Origin: an uncultured Porphyromonadaceae bacterium
GTDB taxonomy: Bacteria; Bacteroidota; Bacteroidia; Bacteroidales; Muribaculaceae
Assembly: GCA_947175665.1 (NCBI GenBank)
Contig: CAMWNR010000014.1
Coordinates: 1 to 32,579 of the forward strand
Length of the DNA: 32,579 nt
Direction of reading: 5' to 3'
Shown: one piece after another, positions 84 to 32,294 of the stretch
How positions within the stretch are numbered: the stretch's first letter is position 1
Layout of the letters: each line of letters opens with the position of its first letter
Translations under genes and position numbers: made by a program
Notes under the pieces: model-generated
What the model saw: only the letters and a program-made list of their open reading frames with translations
Database searches by the model: none
Told to the model about the DNA's origin: nothing

Positions 84-1034
84 CTACATTTTACAAATTA
101 CTTTAAAATCGACATCGAGGTTATCGAGTGCTTTGCGTGCATCAGATTCGCTCTCGTAGATGCCGTATAGTGCCGCACCGCTACCGGTCATAGAGGCGTA
201 AAGCGCACCGGTGGCATAGAGTGCATCTTTTAAGTGCTTTAGTTGTGGATACTGAGGAAACAATGATGTTTCAAAGTCGTTTTTCAAAAAATCTTTCCAT
301 TGATTGAGTGGCTTTTTCAATATATCTTTTATCGAAATATCAGGAATTTCAGGCCTTACCCCTGCAAATGCTTCCTTAGTAGAGATATACAGATCGGGTT
401 TTACGACTACACACCATTTCCCGTCTAAAATATTACTCATTTCTTCAAGTTTCTCACCGATACCTTCGGCGTATGCCGGACGGTTTTTAATAAATACCGG
501 GCAGTCTGCGCCCAATCTCAACGCCATCTGCTCCAGTTGCGTATCATCAAACCCTTTCAATCCTTTTTTCTTACCTATTTCATTTATCATGCGCAGGGTA
601 AATGACGCATCAGCGCTACCGCCACCCATCCCCGCTCCATCGGGCAATTGCTTGTAGAGAGTTATCATTATATCCCCTACACTGTTGTAAAAGGTATCTT
701 TTGTGCCTGATTGATTGTCAAATTCTTTAAATATTTCACGTGCCGCCCTGACTACAAGGTGTTTATCTATGCCGCATTGTACTTTATTGCCGAGAAAAAG
801 GTAAGCAATCCCCTTGTATTGCCCATCTCTTATAATCTCTTCATTATCCATTTCTGATGAAGATGAAGAAACCGGATTTATTTCAAGCATATCATTAAAT
901 CGCTCCGGATTTTCGGGGCGACCGTTGTATACACCTATAGGATAAAACATCGTCTCGAGAAGGTGATACCCATCTTCTCTTTTCCCTACGATATTTAGTC
1001 CGAGATTTATCTTGGCGTTGACAAATTGAATCAT
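84..1034 (-). CDS. ispE: 4-diphosphocytidyl-2-C-methyl-D-erythritol kinase
   Basis: This cytoplasmic GHMP-family kinase phosphorylates CDP-methylerythritol in the MEP pathway to isoprenoid precursors. The 316-residue product opens with NAKINLGLNI, typical of IspE. It has the glycine-rich ATP loop PDGAGMGGGSADAS at residues 131-144 and GADCPVF with the likely catalytic Asp at 177. A C-terminal TGSGAALYG motif completes the GHMP fold. It is about 30 residues longer than E. coli IspE. The extra length is mainly a polar, Ser-rich insertion near residues 37-65. The gene lies 74 nt downstream of the MATE gene on the same strand and may be cotranscribed. No convincing promoter of its own is visible. 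Confidence 0.95.
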   Translation of the reverse strand: MIQFVNAKINLGLNIVGKREDGYHLLETMFYPIGVYNGRPENPERFNDMLEINPVSSSSSEMDNEEIIRDGQYKGIAYLFLGNKVQCGIDKHLVVRAAREIFKEFDNQSGTKDTFYNSVGDIMITLYKQLPDGAGMGGGSADASFTLRMINEIGKKKGLKGFDDTQLEQMALRLGADCPVFIKNRPAYAEGIGEKLEEMSNILDGKWCVVVKPDLYISTKEAFAGVRPEIPDISIKDILKKPLNQWKDFLKNDFETSLFPQYPQLKHLKDALYATGALYASMTGSGAALYGIYESESDARKALDNLDVDFKVICKM

Positions 1035-1108
1035 ATATTTTCTTGATATTTTGCGAATTTATTACTTGTTTGTTCAGGTTGTGGAGTTGAGCAATATATA
1101 TAAGTATT

Positions 1109-2467
1109 TTATCGGGAGGTTGTTTTGTATTGCCGTATTGCAGAGGGATAAAGGAGTATCAACCCTATAGCGCGCACAGCAAGAAAAGTCAGAAAGCCTC
1201 CCCAGACTATAGGGTTTAATATCCGGGGGTCCGTGACACCGCACATTTTACTCACAAAATAAGTACCTAAAAATATCGAAACCGCTATAAAAGTTACAAT
1301 CAACATTTTACGCGTGGCTGTTATGCCAATATATATACCATCATATAGAAAGGCCATTACAGAGATTACAGGTATTACACCTACCACTATTCTCAACTCA
1401 GTCACCCCTTTTGCTATTTCAGATGATTCTGACAGCATCCATGCTATCTGTGGTGCAAAAATCAGATATACCGCTCCGAATGTTACCCCTATTGCTCCGC
1501 ACCAGCTCCATAACCTTCTTACCGTAGTGTGCATGTAGCGAAAGTTGCCGGCTCCTGCCAATCGACCGCAGAGGGCTTCTGCACTAAATGCAAATCCATC
1601 TGAAAAATATGAGAAGAAAAGAAACAGTTGCATAATTATCGCATTGACGGCAAGTACCTCATCACCCATTCTTCCGCCGAAAGTAGTCATGCCGAATGTG
1701 GCTCCCAATATACATGCCGAGCGCAACATTAAATCTGAGTTTACACGAAAGAATCGTTTTATATCTACCTGCTTTGACAATCCTTTTACAGATACCCACA
1801 ATCCCCTCTGCGAATAACGGTGAGCGAGCATACGGGCGAGTATTAACCCCAGTCCCAATCCAAACCAATTGGCTGTCAACGTACCTATAGCGACTCCGTA
1901 AAATCCCATGCCTGCCCCGAATACCAGCAGAAAACTCATAGCGATATTGACAACATTAACGCTTATCGCCATTATCATAGGGTAGAAAGTATTCTGCATA
2001 CCTATCATCCACCCCGTTATGGTCATCGTTGATAATAGGGCAGGCGCTGACATTATACTTATCATATAGTAACTTAATCCCAACCCTCCCGTTTCATGCG
2101 GAGGACTCATCAAGCCGATCATCAACTCTCCCAAGGGATAGGCAATAAGTATTATCAACATACCGAGCATTACGGCTATCAGAAATGATATGGTAAAGAT
2201 ACCGCGTGTCTGATGCATATTGCCGCGTCCTAATGCCTCGGCTGTCAAACCGGTGGTGCCGGCGCGCAGAAATCCCAGTAACCAATATACAGAGTTTACC
2301 ATCATGCTCCCTACGGCTATCGCGGCCACATACCTGTCGCTCCCTAAATGACCGGAGATATAGGTATCGCTCAGGCCGAGTATAGGCACTGTTATATTAC
2401 TGAATATAGCCGGAAGTGCCAAGGCAAGAATCTCTTTGTTGAGTCCTTTTTTCTCTTCGGCTTTCAT
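1109..2467 (-). CDS. MATE family efflux transporter
   Basis: This inner-membrane multidrug/toxin exporter of the MATE (NorM/DinF) type probably uses a Na+ or H+ gradient. The 452-residue product is almost wholly hydrophobic and fits about 12 membrane segments in two MatE halves. The first half opens with ILALALPAIFSNITVPILGL, and LGLSDTYISGHLG follows the usual N-terminal pattern. I start at the Met of MKAEEKKGLNKE (2467). It is preceded by a purine-rich stretch (ggggagtggtgagag), and the 36 residues that the frame could add upstream (to 2575) do not look like transporter sequence and would run across the promoter. The substrate is unknown. It is divergent from the DUF3822 gene. Confidence 0.9.
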   Translation of the reverse strand: MKAEEKKGLNKEILALALPAIFSNITVPILGLSDTYISGHLGSDRYVAAIAVGSMMVNSVYWLLGFLRAGTTGLTAEALGRGNMHQTRGIFTISFLIAVMLGMLIILIAYPLGELMIGLMSPPHETGGLGLSYYMISIMSAPALLSTMTITGWMIGMQNTFYPMIMAISVNVVNIAMSFLLVFGAGMGFYGVAIGTLTANWFGLGLGLILARMLAHRYSQRGLWVSVKGLSKQVDIKRFFRVNSDLMLRSACILGATFGMTTFGGRMGDEVLAVNAIIMQLFLFFSYFSDGFAFSAEALCGRLAGAGNFRYMHTTVRRLWSWCGAIGVTFGAVYLIFAPQIAWMLSESSEIAKGVTELRIVVGVIPVISVMAFLYDGIYIGITATRKMLIVTFIAVSIFLGTYFVSKMCGVTDPRILNPIVWGGFLTFLAVRAIGLILLYPSAIRQYKTTSR

Positions 2468-2538
2468 ACTCTCACCACTCCCCTCTATTTTACCGCTTAT
2501 ATCCATTATTCTATTATGGAGAGATGAATTTTTTTGAT

Positions 2539-2554
2539 TATCTTTGCAAATATA
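2539..2554. promoter_or_regulatory. Back-to-back divergent -7 boxes
   Basis: The plus-strand box TATCTTTG (2539-2546) directly abuts the minus-strand box TATATTTG (2547-2554, written CAAATATA on the plus strand). Both fit the Bacteroidota consensus TAnnTTTG. They would serve the DUF3822 gene (leader about 70 nt) and the MATE gene (leader about 75 nt). No good -33 element is seen on either side. The two polymerases could not both occupy the site, which would make the two genes mutually exclusive at any instant. Confidence 0.5.
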
Positions 2555-2622
2555 GCAATTTCTCACGGCTCCCATGCTGTAATCGCTGTAATATTTTATC
2601 CCACTGCAAACAATGTAGGTCC

Positions 2623-3465
2623 ATGAATACTGTAAATCCTCAAAATGTCATTATTACTCCGGCTGATTTTGCCGATACAGGTCAATGGCGATTGATAATA
2701 CATATCAGTCGTACAGGTATGGCTGCGTTTCTTAAGCATCTTTCTGACAATACAAAACCTATTGTCGAGATGTTTCGCAATAATTGGGATGAATCTGAAA
2801 ACAGTGACCTCCTCTCAAAAATAGAAAATTGCGTCTATGACCACCCGGGTCTCCTCGATGATTATTCTACCGATATCATTATCGATACTCCGATAGTGGC
2901 CTTTGCCCCATCTGAGATTATTGATAATGAGGAGAATATCGAAGAGACTATATTTTCCGCTCTTTATCCGGGGAGCGACCGCGAACTGATGACTGACCGT
3001 ATAGGTGATGTAACCGCTCTATTTTCGCTTTGCGATGGTCTTGACGGTTTCCTTTCACGCACAATTCCGGGAGCGAGATTAAGAAATAATCTGGCTATTC
3101 TGATCGAATATTTCTCAAATAAGAATTTGGGTGACGCCAGAGTATACGTGGATATTCACGGCAATAATGTTGATATATCAGCCTTCAATCAATCCGGTTT
3201 ATTGGCAGCCTCAACCCGCCGTTGGAAGCATGAGGATGATATAATATACATGATTTTCCAGGTGCTTAATGCATATCATATAGCACCCGAAAATGCCAAC
3301 ATATACCTCTCCGGCATGCCTGAGGTCAGAACTGCCATTACCCCGAAATTAAGGCAATTCTGCGGCTATGTAGTAAAAACCACTCTGCCGGAAATCGCCG
3401 AAAAATACAATCTCCCCTCAGCAGTAGCATTACTAATCAACAAATCCTCAACACCTCTCACCTAA
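2623..3465 (+). CDS. DUF3822 family protein
   Basis: This 280-residue soluble protein has no signal peptide. The block YVDIHGNNVDISAFNQSGLL with the following STRRWKHEDDIIYMIFQVLNAY matches my memory of DUF3822, a Bacteroidota family of unknown function with an actin/ASKHA-like look. It is typically found next to rsmD, as here. I start at the ATG at 2623 (MNTVNPQNVIITPADF). The 33 residues that could be added upstream are Cys-rich, unlike the rest, and overlap the promoter. The gene ends 73 nt before rsmD, and that gap holds 10-bp repeats. The function is unknown, and a link to ribosome assembly would be guilt by association only. Confidence 0.8.
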   Translation: MNTVNPQNVIITPADFADTGQWRLIIHISRTGMAAFLKHLSDNTKPIVEMFRNNWDESENSDLLSKIENCVYDHPGLLDDYSTDIIIDTPIVAFAPSEIIDNEENIEETIFSALYPGSDRELMTDRIGDVTALFSLCDGLDGFLSRTIPGARLRNNLAILIEYFSNKNLGDARVYVDIHGNNVDISAFNQSGLLAASTRRWKHEDDIIYMIFQVLNAYHIAPENANIYLSGMPEVRTAITPKLRQFCGYVVKTTLPEIAEKYNLPSAVALLINKSSTPLT

Positions 3466-3480
3466 AAGATAAATAACCCG

Positions 3481-3527
3481 AAATCAAGATAAATCAAGAT
3501 TAATCCGGTTAAATCAAGATAAATCAC
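3481..3527. repeat. 10-bp period repeat, locus 1
   Basis: Five consecutive 10-bp units of the type aaatcaagat or taatccggtt fill most of the gap between the DUF3822 gene and rsmD. They are the reverse complement of the units at 8401-8466 and 17301-17360 (ttgattaatc, ctgatttatc). Confidence 0.75.
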
Positions 3528-3538
3528 TACCTAAAATA

Positions 3539-4075
3539 ATGAGAATAATCCGAGGCAAATACGGGCGTCGCCGCTTCGAACCGCCCAAAAACATCACAGC
3601 CCGCCCCACCACAGATTTCGCACGCGAAAATCTCTTTAACGTGCTTGAGAATATGGATGAGGTTGAAGATAAAACCGTGCTTGATCTTTTCGGAGGCACG
3701 GGCGCTATTTCGTTTGAGTTTATATCCCGTGGCGCGCAGAGCGTAACTATCGTGGAGCAGGCTCGACCCCAGACAGGATTTATACGCAGTGTTAAGGAAA
3801 AACTCGGAGAGGAGAACCTGCACCTTATTTGCGGTGACGTATTCAGATATATCACCGCCGGCCCCAAGGCGTTTGATGTTATCTTTGCCGACCCTCCTTA
3901 CGATCATCCGCGTTTTGACGAAATCCCGCAACTGATCCTCAACTCGCGTCTCGTCAAACCGGGTTCGCTGGTTATTATCGAGCATTCGGGTAAGAAGGAT
4001 TTCTCTCAACTGCCGGGATTTTTTCAGCGCCGTGAATATGGCAGCGTTAATTTCTCTATGTTCCGTGTATCTTGA
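3539..4075 (+). CDS. rsmD: 16S rRNA (guanine(966)-N(2))-methyltransferase
   Basis: RsmD methylates G966 (E. coli numbering) of 16S rRNA during small-subunit assembly, using S-adenosylmethionine. The 178-residue product has the family start [13 protein letters not shown] and the [14 protein letters not shown] block (residues 21-34). The SAM-binding loop DLFGGTG is at 49-55 and the catalytic DPPY motif, typical of N2-guanine methyltransferases, at 118-121. Its length is normal for the family. It sits 47 nt upstream of ribBA on the same strand and downstream of the DUF3822 gene. No separate promoter is evident. Confidence 0.95.
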
Positions 4076-4122
4076 CTCCCTCTTTATTACTATTTATTAA
4101 TCAAGAAATTAAACTCCCAATA

Positions 4123-5337
4123 ATGGATAAAATAAAGTTAGATTCTATTGAAGAGGCTCTTGAAGATTTCAAGGCCGGTAAATTTGTAGTGGTCGTTGAT
4201 GACGAGGATCGCGAAAATGAGGGCGATCTTATCATAGCAGCAGAAAAAATCACTCCCGAAGATGTGAATTTCATGCTTAAGAATGCCCGCGGTGTATTGT
4301 GCGTGCCTATTACAAATGAGGCTTGTAACCGCCTTGACCTTCCTCATCAGGTGGGCGACAATACTTCTGTTCTCGGCACTCCCTTTACCGTTACAGTCGA
4401 TAAACTCGAAGGATGCTCTACCGGTGTGTCTATTCAGGATCGTGCCAATACCATTCGCCATCTTGCCGACCCGGATGCAAAACCTGAAGATTTCGGTCGC
4501 CCGGGTCACATCAATCCTCTTTATGCTCAGGATCGTGGTGTACTGCAACGTGCCGGCCATACCGAGGCTGCTGTTGATCTCGCCCGCCTCGCCGGTCTGC
4601 AACCTTGTGCCGCGCTTATGGAGATTATGAGCGATGACGGCTCTATGGCCCGACTCCCCGAACTCCGCAAACGTGCCGATGAGTGGGGTTTTAAACTTAT
4701 CTCAATCCGTGACCTGATCGCTTACAGACTTAAAAATGATAATATGCTCGAACGTGGCGAGGAGGTGGATATGCCTACCGCTTACGGTCATTTCCGACTT
4801 ATTCCATTTCGCCAGAAGGAGAATGGTCTGGAACATATCGCGCTTATAAAGGGTGATCCTACCCTCCCCGAACCGATGCTCGTTCGCATGCACTCCTCTT
4901 GTATGACAGGCGATATTTTCGGGTCTCAACGCTGCGAGTGCGGTGAGCAGTTGCATCTCGCCATGCAGGAGATTGAAAAGGAGGGTCGCGGTGCTGTAAT
5001 TTATCTTAATCAGGAGGGTCGCGGCATCGGCCTGATGGATAAAATCAAGGCTTACAAACTTCAGGAAAACGGTCTTGATACCATAGACGCCAATCTCCAT
5101 CTCGGTCATAAGGCCGACGAACGGGATTATGGTGTGGGTGCCGGAATCCTCAACGCGTTGGGTATCACTAAACTCAGACTCATGACTAATAACCCTATGA
5201 AACGTATCGGTCTGGAAGGTTATGGACTTGAAATCGTGGAGAATGTACCCCTCGAGGTGGCTCCCAATCCTTACAATGAGAAGTATATGCATACCAAGAA
5301 AACCCGAATGGGACACAATCTTCATAAAGTAGACTGA
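4123..5337 (+). CDS. ribBA: Bifunctional 3,4-dihydroxy-2-butanone 4-phosphate synthase / GTP cyclohydrolase II
   Basis: This protein supplies both precursors of riboflavin. The N-terminal RibB half (about 1-200) turns ribulose 5-phosphate into dihydroxybutanone phosphate. It shows the acidic metal-binding loop [11 protein letters not shown] (26-36) and GHTEAAVDL (145-153). The C-terminal RibA half opens GTP and shows [21 protein letters not shown] with zinc ligands Cys260, Cys271 and Cys273, and EGRGIGL. Both active sites look intact in the 404 residues. I start at 4123 ([13 protein letters not shown]), since family members begin here and the 17 codons available upstream look non-coding. The stop lies 2 nt before the next start, so cotranslation with the peptidase is likely. 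No FMN riboswitch is visible upstream. Confidence 0.96.
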
Positions 5338-5339
5338 TT

Positions 5340-8216
5340 ATGAATCGTTTAGGTTTTACCTCCGCATTAATCGCTTCTCTCTGCTTAGTATCTGCGGCGG
5401 CTAAGCGTCCGCTTGATCACGATGATTTTGACGCTTGGCAAAGTGTATATGTCAACAGCATAAGCAAATCCGGACTCTGGAGCATCTATAGCGTTAACCC
5501 TCAGGAGGGTGACGGCATTATGTCTATCAGAAATAATAAGACTGATAAGGTGATCGCTTTACCTCGCGGTTATAAACCTGCTTTTTCTGCCGATGAGAAG
5601 TGGGCGCTGGCTCTGATTAAACCTCTGTTTGCCGATACCCGCAAGGCCAAGATTGATAAGAAGAAGGATGCCGATCTCCCTAAGGATACTCTGGCTATTA
5701 TCAACCTTACTACAGGTAATATCGAAAAAATACCTTTTGTCACTTCTTATAAAATAGGTGAGAAAGGGGGCGATTTTTTCGCTTATCAGAGTTGTGACAC
5801 GCTCCACATCAAACCGGCGTATCTTAAGGATAAAGAGTCGGGACGCCCGCTGATAATCCGCTCGCTCTCGGCCCCTACCCGAAAAATTGTGAAGTGGGCT
5901 AAGAATTATGATTTCTCTAAGGATGGCCGACACATCTCGCTCCTGCTCAAGAAAAATGAGAAGGATAGTGTGGCTACCGACGGTGTAGCCCTCATCAACC
6001 TGCCGGATACATCTCTGGTGCTGTTCGATCGTGAGATGAAGAGTTATACCCTCCCCGTATTTAATGATCAGTCTGATGCCGTGGCTTATACCGCGACAAA
6101 TGACACTATCGATAGCGGTACCAAGAGATATGAATTGCGATATACGTCTATCGGAGATCTCCTGCAGGGTGCCACCCCTCAGAATATCCCGGTAATGTTT
6201 ACATCGGGGATACCGGTAAATCTCGCTCTCCCTAATGCTGCCAACCCTGATGAGCAAGCGGCTCTCGAAAAGCAACGGTCTACCGCCATGAAGGAGTCTG
6301 CCGGCGACGAACTCCTTATCAACCAGTATTCTACACCGGCTTTCTCTAAAAACGGTCGTTTCCTGCGCATCGGTGTGGCTCCGGTAATCGCTCCTGACGA
6401 TACTACCTTGGTAGATTTTGAGAAGGCTTCGCTCGATATCTGGAGATGGGATGCCCCCTATACTCCCCCACAGGAGAAGGCTAATCTCGCCAAATTGCGT
6501 GAGAGATCTTTACCGGTAGTTATTGACCTCAAGAATGGTTTCGGTCAGCATTTACTTACTAAAAATCAACTTGCCTCTGTCGAACCCTCTTTCGGATGGG
6601 ATGCCGAGTGGGTGTTGCTTCGCGATCCCTCCGATAGTATTATCAGCAAGCAGTGGAATTACCTTAACCCTGAGAAACTTACAGCCGTTAATGTCGTGAC
6701 CGGCAAACGTGTCGAAGCCGGTGTAGCCGATTATGATGCTTCGGCTCTTTCTCCCGATGGCAGATTCATCCTGATTTATCGTGACCGTAATTATTACGCT
6801 TTTGAAATCGCTACCGGCAAAACCGTTAATCTCACCGAGAATCTCCCCTATCCTATCTGGATTGAGGATGATGATCACCCTATGCCGTCACAACCTATCG
6901 GTATTGCCGCCTGGGGTAACAATGATGGCAGGGTTCTCGTTTATGATATGTTTGATATATGGGTTCTCGATATGACCGGTGCCACCGAACCGATTAATTT
7001 CACCGCCGGCTACGGTCGTAAAAATAATCTCAGACTCCGCTATCATAATCTCGATAAGGAGTCCGGTTCTCTCAAGCCCGGCGAACTGATGATCCTTGAT
7101 GTTATTGATAATAATACCAAGGAGCGCGGGCTGGCCACGACTAAATATACTCTGAAAAAGGGAGGCGTAAACCCCACCGTACGCCTGCTTGATAAATACA
7201 AGATAACTCAACTCACCAAGGCACAGGATGCCGAGCAATTTGTGTGGCAACGCGCCAACTTCAATACTCTCCCTGACCTATGGACTGTTCGCGGTCTGGA
7301 CTTTGCCAAAGCGCGTCAGATCACCAATGCTAATCCTCAAGCCGCAGAGATCTCCTGGGGTACCGCAGAATTGGTTGAGTGGTATGCCTACGATGGTAAA
7401 AAGGCGCAAGGCGTGCTTTATCTGCCGGAAGGGTTTGATCCCGTAAATGGCAGTTACCCTATGCTTTCGGTATTCTATGAGACCAACGCCGATGAACTCT
7501 ATATGCATTATACTATGGAACCCTCATGGAGTTGGGTTAATTACCCATTCTATGTGAGTCGAGGGTATGTGGTATTTGTTCCTGATATTCATTATACTGC
7601 AGGAGTCCCCGGCGAGTGCGCTTATAATTATGTATGTTCCGGTGTGGAGGAGATGCTTAAACGCTACCCTTCTATCGATCCTGAACGTCTCGGTATCGAC
7701 GGCCAGTCGTGGGGCGGTTACCAAACCGCTTACCTTGTCACCCGCACTAATATGTTTGCCTGCGCAGGCAGCGGTGCTCCGGTGTCAAATATGACCTCCG
7801 CTTACGGTGGAATACGTTGGGGTAGCGGTGATTCGCGTCAGGTACAATATGAAATGGGTCAGAGCCGTATAGGGCGGAATCTTTGGGAGTCTCCGTATCT
7901 CTATATCGCCAATTCTCCACTCTTCTTTGCCGACCGCGTAGAGACCCCGCTTCTGATTATGCATAATGATGCCGACGGTGCTGTACCCTGGTATCAGGGT
8001 ATCGAGTTCTTTATGGCATTACGCCGCCTCAATAAACCCGTATGGATGCTGCAATATAACGATGAGGCCCATAACCTCCGCGAGCGCCGTAACCGTAAGG
8101 ATATCACGCGCCGATTGCAACAATTCTTCGACCATTATCTTAAAGGCGAACCAATGCCGCGCTGGATGAAACAAGGCATATCACCCTTGCGCAAAGGTCA
8201 GGATTTTGGTTTCTGA
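5340..8216 (+). CDS. Secreted S9 family peptidase (prolyl oligopeptidase type)
   Basis: This is a large (958-residue) serine peptidase with an N-terminal signal peptide (MNRLGFTSALIASLCLVSAAA), so periplasmic or exported. Residues of roughly 40-670 would form the beta-propeller. The C-terminal alpha/beta-hydrolase domain carries the full triad: Ser790 in GQSWGG, Asp879 in HNDADGAVPW and His911 in NDEAHNLRERRN. Such enzymes usually cleave short peptides, as in DPP- or acylaminoacyl-peptidase-like proteins. The exact specificity cannot be read from sequence. The gene starts 2 nt after the ribBA stop. Its last codons and stop are repeated imperfectly downstream (8196-8270). Confidence 0.9.
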   Translation: MNRLGFTSALIASLCLVSAAAKRPLDHDDFDAWQSVYVNSISKSGLWSIYSVNPQEGDGIMSIRNNKTDKVIALPRGYKPAFSADEKWALALIKPLFADTRKAKIDKKKDADLPKDTLAIINLTTGNIEKIPFVTSYKIGEKGGDFFAYQSCDTLHIKPAYLKDKESGRPLIIRSLSAPTRKIVKWAKNYDFSKDGRHISLLLKKNEKDSVATDGVALINLPDTSLVLFDREMKSYTLPVFNDQSDAVAYTATNDTIDSGTKRYELRYTSIGDLLQGATPQNIPVMFTSGIPVNLALPNAANPDEQAALEKQRSTAMKESAGDELLINQYSTPAFSKNGRFLRIGVAPVIAPDDTTLVDFEKASLDIWRWDAPYTPPQEKANLAKLRERSLPVVIDLKNGFGQHLLTKNQLASVEPSFGWDAEWVLLRDPSDSIISKQWNYLNPEKLTAVNVVTGKRVEAGVADYDASALSPDGRFILIYRDRNYYAFEIATGKTVNLTENLPYPIWIEDDDHPMPSQPIGIAAWGNNDGRVLVYDMFDIWVLDMTGATEPINFTAGYGRKNNLRLRYHNLDKESGSLKPGELMILDVIDNNTKERGLATTKYTLKKGGVNPTVRLLDKYKITQLTKAQDAEQFVWQRANFNTLPDLWTVRGLDFAKARQITNANPQAAEISWGTAELVEWYAYDGKKAQGVLYLPEGFDPVNGSYPMLSVFYETNADELYMHYTMEPSWSWVNYPFYVSRGYVVFVPDIHYTAGVPGECAYNYVCSGVEEMLKRYPSIDPERLGIDGQSWGGYQTAYLVTRTNMFACAGSGAPVSNMTSAYGGIRWGSGDSRQVQYEMGQSRIGRNLWESPYLYIANSPLFFADRVETPLLIMHNDADGAVPWYQGIEFFMALRRLNKPVWMLQYNDEAHNLRERRNRKDITRRLQQFFDHYLKGEPMPRWMKQGISPLRKGQDFGF

Positions 8217-8270
8217 CAACAGGTCAGGATTTTGATCTCTGACAGTGGCCGGATTTTGGTTTTCCTGCCT
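8196..8270. repeat. Tandem repeat spanning the S9 peptidase stop codon
   Basis: Three degenerate units of about 25-26 bp begin at 8196, 8222 and 8247 (ggtcaggattttggtttctg and relatives). The first contains the end of the peptidase gene (GQDFGF, stop) and the others lie beyond the stop. This is consistent with slippage at the 3' end. Confidence 0.7.
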
Positions 8271-8298
8271 CAGAATTAAGGACTTTTTATTAATTACA

Positions 8299-8330
8299 AA
8301 TCGGGCTGCGCATCACTGCGCAGCCCGATT
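8299..8330. terminator. Shared hairpin terminator between convergent genes
   Basis: A perfect 14-bp stem (8299-8312 with 8317-8330) closes a TCAC loop. It stands between the convergent S9 peptidase and asparaginase genes. The T-tract is poor on both strands, so its efficiency is uncertain. Confidence 0.65.
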
Positions 8331-8400
8331 AATTCTACCATATTTAACTTAATAACGTAACGAATCTTTATAGTATATTATTTATTATATAGTGTTTTGC

Positions 8401-8466
8401 CTGATTTATCTTGAATTAGCCTGATTAATCTTGATTTAACCTGATTTATCTTGATTAATCTTGAAT
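8401..8466. repeat. 10-bp period repeat, locus 2
   Basis: Nearly seven consecutive 10-bp units (ctgatttatc, ttgaattagc, ctgattaatc, ttgatttaac and so on) lie between the shared terminator and the asparaginase stop codon. They have the same orientation as locus 3 (17301-17360) and are opposite to locus 1 (3481-3527). Confidence 0.8.
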
Positions 8467-8492
8467 TGGGAGAGAATATGGCTGGTTGGGTT

Positions 8493-9848
8493 TTAATCGG
8501 CGTCTTCCGAGGCCATTTCTCCGCAGATGGGGAGTACCATCTGCTCTTTTACGGCCTCTATGTCATCGGTCTGACCAAAGAGATGCATCAATTTTGTGAT
8601 TGCGGCCTCTGAGGTGAGATCTTTACCGCTTATTACTCCTGTTTTGGAAATCTCAAGTCCGGCTGCGTACAATCCGGGATTGACATGGCCGTTTTGACAC
8701 TGCGAGATGTTTACCACTACGATACCGCGCTCCACAGCCTCTTGTATTTCGCGTATAAACCACGGGTCGTTGGGACCGTTGCCGGCACCGAAGGTCTTTA
8801 TTATAATACCCTTTACACCGGGGGTATGAAACATGTGACGCACTACATTCTCCTGAATACCGGGAAAGAGATCTATCACCATCACATTGGTATCTATACC
8901 GTAATGCACCTTGAGCGGACCATTCATATCAGGCTTTAAAAGCACATCTTTATTGAAGTGTATACCAAGTCCGATGCTTGCAAGTGCGGGGTAATTGTTT
9001 GAGGAGAACGCGCAGAAGTTGTCTGAGGAATGTTTGGTACTGCGGTTACCGCGCCAGAGAAAGTCTTCAAACAGTATCGCTACCTCTCTTACCATCATAT
9101 TGCCATCACAATTTCTGGCTGATGCTATCTGCAACGCTGTTATGAGATTTTCCTCTCCGTCTGTTCGCACATCTCCGATAGGTAGTTGACTGCCGGTTAT
9201 AATTACGGGCTTGTTGAGACCCTGCAGCATGTAACTTAATGCCGATGCCGTGTAGGCCATCGTGTCGGTACCGTGCAGTACTACAAAACCATCGCAGTTA
9301 TCATAATTATCCTCAATGACCTTTGCTATCTGCTGCCAGTGTCCAGGATTCATCGACGATGAGTCTATCGGATTGACAAACTCTACACTCTCTATGTCTA
9401 TGTCAAGCAGTCGCAACTTAGGCACATTCTCAAGCAGATGATCGAAATTAAACGGCTCAAGAGTCTTGCTCTCCGGATTCTCCATCATACCTATGGTGCC
9501 TCCGGTGTATATGATCATTACTTTCGGGCGCTCACCATCTTTACCGTGAAGTGTGCTGACGGCATATTTCTGCGGAGGGCGTACTGAGGTTGTCATATTG
9601 CAGTGTAGATTAATTAGATTATTGACATTCGTCTTCGCTTTGGCTCTCGGGAGCATGCACAGTCGCAACTTAGGCACATTCTCAAGCAGATGATCGAAAT
9701 TAAACGGCTCAAGAGTCTTGCTCTCCGGATTCTCCATCATACCTATGGTGCCTCCGGTGTATATGATCATTACTTTCGGGCGCTCACCATCTTTACCGTG
9801 AAGTGTGCTGACGGCATATTTCTGCGGAGGGCGTACTGAGGTTGTCAT
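8493..9848 (-). CDS. ansA: Type I L-asparaginase with duplicated N-terminus
   Basis: The cytoplasmic-type enzyme hydrolyses asparagine to aspartate and ammonia. Conserved blocks are YTGGTIGMMEN (first catalytic Thr), LHGTDTMAYTASAL (second Thr motif) and ITGSQLPIGDVRTDGEENL. The normal family-length product would start at 9596 (MTTSVRPPQKYAVST, 367 residues). An exact 252-bp tandem copy (84 codons, no stop) sits directly upstream. The frame therefore stays open to ATGs at 9848 and 9908, giving 451 or 471 residues with two YTGGTIG segments joined through translated leader. The only good promoter lies outside both copies. Which start is used cannot be decided from sequence. An assembly artefact is possible. 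Confidence 0.85.
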   Translation of the reverse strand: MTTSVRPPQKYAVSTLHGKDGERPKVMIIYTGGTIGMMENPESKTLEPFNFDHLLENVPKLRLCMLPRAKAKTNVNNLINLHCNMTTSVRPPQKYAVSTLHGKDGERPKVMIIYTGGTIGMMENPESKTLEPFNFDHLLENVPKLRLLDIDIESVEFVNPIDSSSMNPGHWQQIAKVIEDNYDNCDGFVVLHGTDTMAYTASALSYMLQGLNKPVIITGSQLPIGDVRTDGEENLITALQIASARNCDGNMMVREVAILFEDFLWRGNRSTKHSSDNFCAFSSNNYPALASIGLGIHFNKDVLLKPDMNGPLKVHYGIDTNVMVIDLFPGIQENVVRHMFHTPGVKGIIIKTFGAGNGPNDPWFIREIQEAVERGIVVVNISQCQNGHVNPGLYAAGLEISKTGVISGKDLTSEAAITKLMHLFGQTDDIEAVKEQMVLPICGEMASEDAD

Positions 9849-31675: not shown

Positions 31676-31727
31676 TCTTGAGGCAATTCATATCTATCCA
31701 ATAAAGGAATCTACCGCATGGCAAATG

Positions 31728-31945
31728 GCGTAAGCCGCCTGCAGAGCAGATAGCGTATATAATCAAGCGTAAGCCGCCTGCAGAGCAGATAGCGTATATC
31801 ATCAGGCGAAAGCCGCCTGCAGAGCAGGTAGCGTATATCATCAGGCGTAAGCCGCCTGCAGAGCAGGTAGCGTATATCATCAGGCGTAAGCCGCCTGCAG
31901 AGCAGGTAGCGTATATAATCAGGCGAAAGCCGCCTGCAGAGCAGG
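31728..31945. repeat. 39-bp tandem repeat array
   Basis: Five full units start at 31728, 31767, 31806, 31845 and 31884, and a partial sixth starts at 31923. Units differ by a few bases (gcgtaagccgcctgcagagc is the common start). Each holds CCTGC-AGA-GCAGG or a near match, a small hairpin. At 39 bp (13 codons) the array is open in several frames, but I see no coding signal. Confidence 0.95.
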
Positions 31946-31951
31946 CATTCG

Positions 31952-32214
31952 GCATAGGCACGTATCAATCAAGGCCGGAAGGCCTTGATTGGTGCGTGTA
32001 TTCGCATAGCCCCACCATATATAAATGTGCCGCGTTAGCGGTACTTCTTAAAACGGGGACGGTGTTTAAGGGGTGTTAAAGGGGTGTTAAAGGGGTGTTA
32101 AAGGGGTGTTTACGTGGCGTTGAAGTACCGCTAACGCGGCACATTTATCGAGGTCGGGTATACCGATACACGCACCAGCAAAAATCAAAGATTTTTGCTG
32201 ATACGTGCCTATGC
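31952..32214. repeat. Nested palindrome with a central G-rich array
   Basis: Outer arms GCATAGGCACGTATCA (31952-31967) and TGATACGTGCCTATGC (32199-32214) are exact complements. So are TGGTGCGTGTAT (31990-32001) and ATACACGCACCA (32166-32177), and the 27-bp central arms 32021-32047 and 32122-32148. Two local hairpins also exist: 31959-31976 with 31981-31998, and 32169-32186 with 32190-32207. The centre (32064-32107) is four 11-bp units gttaaaggggt or close. There is no credible gene. Confidence 0.9.
32070..32106 (+). other. Possible G-quadruplex motif
   Basis: Four GGGG runs (32070-32073, 32081-32084, 32092-32095, 32103-32106) are separated by exactly 7 nt each, fitting a plus-strand quadruplex of four tetrads. 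A fifth GGGG lies at 32055-32058. The runs sit in the loop of the 27-bp inverted repeat. Confidence 0.55.
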
Positions 32215-32218
32215 TGAA

Positions 32219-32294
32219 ATCCCGCTACGCGGGATGGTCGCCCCAAGAATCGGTAATTACCTCGCATGTATCCGCTACGTGGGATGGTCGCCCC
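32219..32294. repeat. Direct repeat pair with an internal palindrome
   Basis: Two related 25-26 bp units (32219-32244 and 32270-32294) share GGGATGGTCGCCCC. The first begins with the perfect palindrome ATCCCGC-TAC-GCGGGAT. The second is degenerate in that arm (gct acg tgg). They follow directly on the nested palindrome. Confidence 0.8.

Follow-up and report, generated by a model that had tools for sequence, protein, structure and literature searches.

A repeated palindrome behind valS in an uncultured Muribaculaceae bacterium is probably the gene-less copy of a mobile repeat whose three-hairpin ends flank Y1 transposase genes in relatives

What is the dense set of complementary sequences located behind valS in an uncultured Porphyromonadaceae bacterium (GTDB family Muribaculaceae)? 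The window analyzed here is the 32,579-nucleotide stretch 1-32,579 of contig CAMWNR010000014.1, and the initial annotation of positions 31952-32214 described three nested sets of complementary arms, two local hairpins, and a quadruplex-capable center. All three arm sets can be located: the inner arms (32021-32047/32122-32148) are 100% complementary over 27 nt, the middle arms (31990-32011/32156-32177) are 82% complementary over 22 nt with an exact core of 12 nt, and the outer arms (31933-31967/32199-32233) are 80% complementary over 35 nt with an exact core of 16 nt. Folded as RNA, the segment 31940-32300 has a predicted energy of -178.3 kcal/mol, which is far above chance (z -9.45), and none of 100 dinucleotide shuffles is equally stable. 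Both local hairpins are present as well (31959-31998 and 32169-32207). The span, on the other hand, has to be redrawn, as the true repeated unit extends from 31932 to 32235.

The element at 31932-32235 consists of two inverted halves, each with three hairpins, around a variable center. The left half, read on the plus strand, begins with an outer hairpin of type H1 (31932-31946; GCCTGC AGA GCAGGC), which forms helix 1 of the covariation alignment described below. It is followed by a stretch (31948-31958) that ends in TAGG (31955-31958), a candidate guide tetranucleotide in view of its conservation, and by a central hairpin (31959-31998) with an 8-bp stem, CACGTATC/GGTGCGTG, that includes two T.G pairs and carries a replaceable apex (31967-31990). 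The inner hairpin of this half lies at 32027-32044 (GTGCCGC GTTA GCGGTAC). The right half, on the minus strand, has its inner hairpin at 32125-32142, its central hairpin at 32169-32207 (apex 32177-32199), its TAGG stretch at 32208-32218 (the conserved TAGG at 32208-32211), and an outer hairpin of type H6 at 32219-32235 (ATCCCGC GTA GCGGGAT). The left end also has a satellite, a 39-bp tandem array on the plus strand (31727-31945) whose units contain the H1 hairpin and a spacer. Extra H1 copies adjoin some other elements of the genome too, and the right outer hairpin is repeated at 50-bp spacing over 32222-32294.

In the center (32048-32121), GGGG runs occur five times, four of them at a spacing of exactly 7 nt, and there is an 11-bp tandem repeat. 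The spacing reported by the initial annotation is therefore real; it results from the tandem repeat, which is found in this copy only among 21 distinct centers (obtained from 23 rows, two elements having been counted on both strands). The four-run motif is likewise peculiar to the window copy (1/21), the other centers having 0 to 3 GGGG runs, and a G-quadruplex was rejected as a conserved function on this ground.

The genome to which the window belongs is a 2.33-Mb draft in 166 contigs with a completeness of 99.2%. Searched against it with BLASTN, the segment returned 112 pieces; 35 stretches around these matches were retrieved and their copies compared. A model of the half-unit (R1) gave at least 54 matches in this genome, a lower bound because 60 of 666 candidates were scored. 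All copies follow one plan. The half-unit is ~115 nt long. Going inward, it comprises an outer hairpin (either GCCTGCAGAGCAGGC or ATCCCGCGTAGCGGGAT), TTCAGCATAGG, the central hairpin with the same 8-bp stem topped by a variable apex, a linker rich in C, and the inner hairpin GTGCCGCG(T)TAGCGGTAC. Full copies have two such halves in inverted orientation flanking a variable center, and 18 copies with both halves complete could be aligned. In 17 of these 18, each main type of outer hairpin is present once (one is shortened, on contig C34), while one side of the full copy on C66 bears a third type. There are 57 outer-arm sites in total; the stem could be judged in 53, and all 8 positions are paired in 51 of them, the two exceptions being at a contig end or without a 3' arm. 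TAGG precedes the central hairpin in 46 of 46 halves, and none of the 18 full copies lies within a stop-to-stop frame of at least 200 aa. Nine of the compared copies are at or near contig ends, and C34 carries near-identical cores with differing flanks. The same draft (G000) also contains a mini-element on contig C9 (locus L033, 1590-1680), in which one long perfect hairpin stands between the two outer hairpins, and, to the left of copies on contigs C58, C86, C30, and C99, another recurring hairpin-like sequence around GCGCTTGCTTCGCTCGCGC.

Variation among these copies indicates which fold has been maintained. When 46 halves, 45 of them distinct, were aligned with MAFFT, 98.1% of cells were in standard pairs, and both sides had changed at 14 of 31 pairs versus 8.8 in shuffles (0/500 as high); sliding the pairing along the alignment abolishes the signal. 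Covariation is found in helices 1 and 2; helix 3, the inner hairpin, is almost invariant and tells little within this genome. The lower stem of the central hairpin has changed on both local sides, from CACG/CGTG to CCCG/CGGG in five halves and from A-T to T-A in one, and the apices have been exchanged for quite different sequences that are nonetheless self-complementary. In the 18 full copies, local pairing of the lower stem is found in 288 of 288 cells, as opposed to 279 of 288 for the extended pairing between halves, as three copies carry local double changes that disrupt the latter. The difference is larger for the apices (337/360 local, 235/360 extended) and absent for the inner hairpin (252/252 versus 251/252), which does not discriminate. 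Covariation therefore supports local hairpins rather than a long cruciform, which was rejected as the conserved unit. The alternation between one extended cruciform and individual hairpins that had been suggested for this locus is accordingly not its conserved feature, though the extended form may exist, as folding predicts it for one strand of the whole element. In DNA folding of the window halves, all three hairpins form in both halves on the strand that reads from outside to inside, and less completely on the other strand (-30.8 versus -28.4 and -32.2 versus -28.7 kcal/mol).

Relatives of the element were found by structure. BLASTN of the segment detected none in 60 other genomes, and model R1 was positive in 6 of 61 genomes of a genus sample and 9 of 397 of a family sample, the own genome included in both. 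A second covariance model, R2, was built solely from copies of other species (57 rows, 53 distinct) and thus contains no sequence of the own genome, the copies of which it recovers at E 1.4e-20. This model is positive in 46 of the 397 family genomes (12 of 30 genera), that is, in 45 genomes besides the own one. Across relatives (10 other genomes), three helices covary over ~115 nt, with 95.0% of cells paired and both-side changes at 28 of 31 pairs, although these counts lean toward structure since the alignment (A2) was fitted to the model. TAGG precedes the central hairpin in 47 of 53 distinct halves; the same number of distinct rows (47 of 53) keep a T.G pair at one position of the stem, whereas the second T.G position is poorly conserved across species (UG 32, CG 16, UA 2). 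The initial annotation had considered that absence from relatives, or arms drifting without compensatory change, would indicate chance or decay; within the Bacteroidales, the search instead yielded relatives with double changes at nearly every pair, and its suggestion of a composite of palindromic repeats proved correct, in the form of a dispersed family with compensatory changes among copies and relatives. At the order level the signal is almost lost: 7 of 393 genomes matched, two of which are the own genome and another member of the family; the remainder are G616 at 2.5e-8 and four between 1e-4 and 1e-3. Used as an exact pattern, the outer arm had 0 matches in genome_contigs, from which records near the genome of the window may be absent, and its four loci in viral_contigs were all rejected as unrelated. 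No such element was seen when 730 nt behind valS were searched for the arms in 15 of 80 ValS relatives. Two loci of relatives may be recorded here: contig C14 of G256 holds eight element halves in ~8.5 kb (238-8672), and L141 (G034) contains an FopS small RNA (RF04319) above its gathering score at 111-182.

In relatives, the element often adjoins genes of the Y1 transposase family. The own genome has 0 matches to PF01797 (Y1_Tnp) at E 1e-3, but the domain was found at this threshold in 15 of 20 relatives' genomes tested, namely in 10 of 10 element-positive genomes and 5 of 10 others, some of the matches being a different, longer protein type. In G061, G069, and G204, a Y1 gene immediately adjoins elements. 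The G061 protein, which has 0 tblastn matches in the own genome at E 1e-6, matches 196 of the 397 family genomes at this threshold, and the best Y1 locus of each of 30 of these genomes was scanned with R2. Of these 30 loci, 21 have an element at E 1e-3, and in 20 it lies within 200 bp of the gene in the expected direction (plus on the left or minus on the right). Seven of the 20 are flanked on both sides, 10 on the left only, and three on the right only, with the inner hairpins toward the gene; 25 of 27 element-gene distances are 4-54 bp. At L222, the sole element is 173 bp away and in the opposite direction, and nine loci (L204, L209, L210, and L214-L219) have no element at E 1e-3. Several of the 30 loci end at a contig edge. 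Among 13 other Y1 loci, elements are present in three: L184 (the same gene as L221), L185, and L189. The last two differ from the rest, as L185 (G027; 1006-2694) belongs to a different Y1 subclade, also with Y---Q--HH, and has six element copies in the same direction, while at L189 (G070; 1000-2040 and 2107-2205) an element lies 67 nt from the gene for a PF01797 protein that is 346 aa long and of another type.

The linkage is also visible on a tree and across genomes. A tree was made of 36 Y1 proteins, namely all of the 30 except L197 (29 proteins) and 7 others. L185 was labeled as not flanked, although an element 48 bp to its left would make it flanked under the distance rule used for the others. 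On this tree, a branch of 15 proteins around the query (support 92/93, drawn open) contains 14 flanked ones, and the flanked label requires 6 changes versus 12.1 in shuffles. Of the 16 genomes that have a close Y1 protein, 13 are positive for the element, compared with 33 of 381 others (Fisher p 5.5e-11), where close means an E-value of at most 2.1e-36, a cut picked after the list was seen. Conversely, of the 46 genomes positive for the element, 17, including the own genome, are without a Y1 match at E 1e-6.

The flanked proteins themselves resemble single-strand transposases. Y1_Tnp was matched by the three tested (E 4.7e-20 to 6.7e-24), and NCBIfam transpos_IS200 was above its cut-off in two of the three. 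An HUH motif and Y---Q--HH are present in 20 of 20 flanked proteins, and the L197 protein is intact with both motifs. The closest solved relatives by sequence of the one protein tested are the transposases 2xm3 and 2xma (a weak match, E 0.005), which we take to be ISDra2 TnpA. According to a classification of Y1 proteins (PMC6006769), Y---Q--HH is the signature of TnpA-Y1 subclass 1.2, which occurs mostly in Cyanobacteria and Bacteroidetes; the flanked proteins agree with it in both motif and Bacteroidetes membership. The same source describes terminal structures as generally absent from subclass 1.2 and gives its REP entry as "no" (PMC6006769). Contrary to the reported absence of REP-like structures, an element is found within 200 bp at 20 of the 30 loci examined here.

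These data show a family of dispersed copies in which local hairpins are conserved, with close linkage to Y1 genes and the same inverted layout wherever both ends were found. Because the hairpin ends of the family so often adjoin Y1 genes in relatives, the palindrome of the window is most likely neither a chance product nor a regulatory RNA but a non-autonomous mobile sequence, and most likely of a REPIN- or MITE-like form. We consider it probable that it is a gene-less copy of a mobile repeat whose ~115-nt inverted three-hairpin ends flank, in relatives, a Y1 gene with the subclass 1.2 signature. The wider proposal, which we favor with somewhat less assurance, is a class of its own among mobile elements that use single-stranded DNA, so far seen mainly in one Bacteroidales family, that combines a Y1 protein of subclass 1.2 signature with inverted three-hairpin ends and seeds gene-less inverted pairs and single halves, the apices being replaced wholesale while self-complementarity is kept.

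A mechanism can be sketched by analogy. E. coli TnpA-REP works on a single strand and depends on two features, a tetranucleotide 5' of the hairpin and a conserved bulge of mismatched bases (PMC8266576). If the locus is exposed as single-stranded DNA, as may occur at a replication fork, each end would fold on its outside-to-inside strand; the Y1 protein would then recognize the central hairpin through its T.G pairs and the preceding TAGG, in parallel with TnpA-REP, and could cut and rejoin the strand, so that the pair is copied or moved. The copies of the own genome would be short gene-less derivatives that either are orphans by now or depend on a Y1 gene absent from the assembly. Such a gene may have been lost or may lie in a gap, as nine of the compared copies are at or near contig ends.

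Other explanations were weighed against this mobile-repeat reading. It is improbable, though not without points in its favor, that the repeats are an independent REP-like family that happens to lie near Y1 genes and is moved by another enzyme, or is spread by gene conversion or replication slippage only. The element-positive genomes without a Y1 match (the own genome and 16 others), the near-identical cores with differing flanks on C34, which fit gene conversion, and the extra outer hairpins beside some copies would suit such an origin. The immediate adjacency of element and gene, in one layout and in many genera, and the clustering of the flanked proteins on the Y1 tree speak against it. Similarly doubtful is a structured non-coding RNA or 3'-UTR element that would work through its hairpins once transcribed, for instance by affecting mRNA stability or termination. 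The strong covariation and the U.G pairs suit RNA and single-stranded DNA equally, and the position behind valS together with the absence of full copies from long frames is in keeping with an RNA. The halves, however, are mirror images, so that only one of them reads in the covarying orientation in any transcript; neighboring long frames are in mixed orientations (by crude frame calling); and the same kind of unit flanks transposase genes. A known Rfam RNA was rejected: at the curated threshold, the window had 0 matches, and none in 11 loci fell on an element. In these loci at E 1, the sole hit overlapping an element, the microRNA family mir-6579 at the element end in L158 (34.1 versus 47 bits), is deemed chance. 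Chance or decaying palindromes, or an assembly artifact, are hardly credible, for while the contig-end copies of a 166-contig draft might suggest them, they are contradicted by the covariation, that is, by compensatory changes between copies, and opposed by the fold stability and the matches in 45 further genomes.

As a mobile repeat, the element is close to several known systems. REP/REPIN sequences with their TnpA-REP/RAYT proteins (REPtrons) are also dispersed intergenic palindromes, single or in inverted pairs, with an own version in each genome, a flanking Y1 gene, and an imperfect hairpin preceded on its 5' side by a tetranucleotide. Numerous scattered palindromes between genes are found here too, the at least 54 halves of the own genome with 0 of 18 full copies in long frames, whereas inverted copies flanking a Y1 gene are found in relatives only (7 of 30 loci on both sides, 13 on one side). 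In contrast, REPs have one hairpin of 20-40 bp, rather than three over ~115 nt, with GT[AG]G rather than TAGG at the hairpin foot, and the REPtron protein is a TnpA-Y1 of class 2 with ..NP motifs rather than Y---Q--HH. The family is thus near REP/REPtron systems, yet it lacks three of their defining features (tag, size, and protein class). Elements of the IS200/IS605 family have a Y1_Tnp (PF01797) gene between hairpin ends, as do the relatives' loci here; their ends are hairpins on one strand without inverted repeats, they insert on the 3' side of a short fixed target, which is not duplicated, and their short derivatives are named PATEs. The ends described here differ in being inverted repeats of a three-hairpin unit (left plus, right minus), and this arrangement is at odds with the usual IS200/IS605 cycle, where both ends act on one strand; inverted ends are a puzzle here, as they are for REPINs. 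MITEs are defined by terminal inverted repeats that they have in common with an autonomous element, and by target-site duplication; here, shared inverted ends were observed at Y1-bearing loci of relatives. BIMEs and the pneumococcal BOX elements are likewise intergenic mosaics of hairpin modules; the module order here is fixed, and a transposase partner is present in relatives. In Bacteroidetes, subclass 2.6 proteins have been reported with "atypical secondary structures" beside the gene and copies elsewhere in the genome (PMC6006769), as is the case here. Their motif, YIH[QN]NP, differs from Y---Q--HH, and the structures may be alike.

As far as the literature was searched, it contains no account of this element, and Y1 subclasses are treated in PMC6006769 alone. 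As BLASTN found the element in 0 of 60 other genomes and a structural model in 46 of 397, hairpin-based mobile repeats may be missed elsewhere. Subclass 1.2 has been reported (PMC6006769) as generally without structures that mark an IS or REP, which leaves its substrate open. If the proposed reading is true, subclass 1.2 proteins would gain their first candidate DNA substrate, judging from the papers searched: a covarying, strand-asymmetric three-hairpin repeat beside genes of subclass 1.2 type is a concrete candidate for that role.
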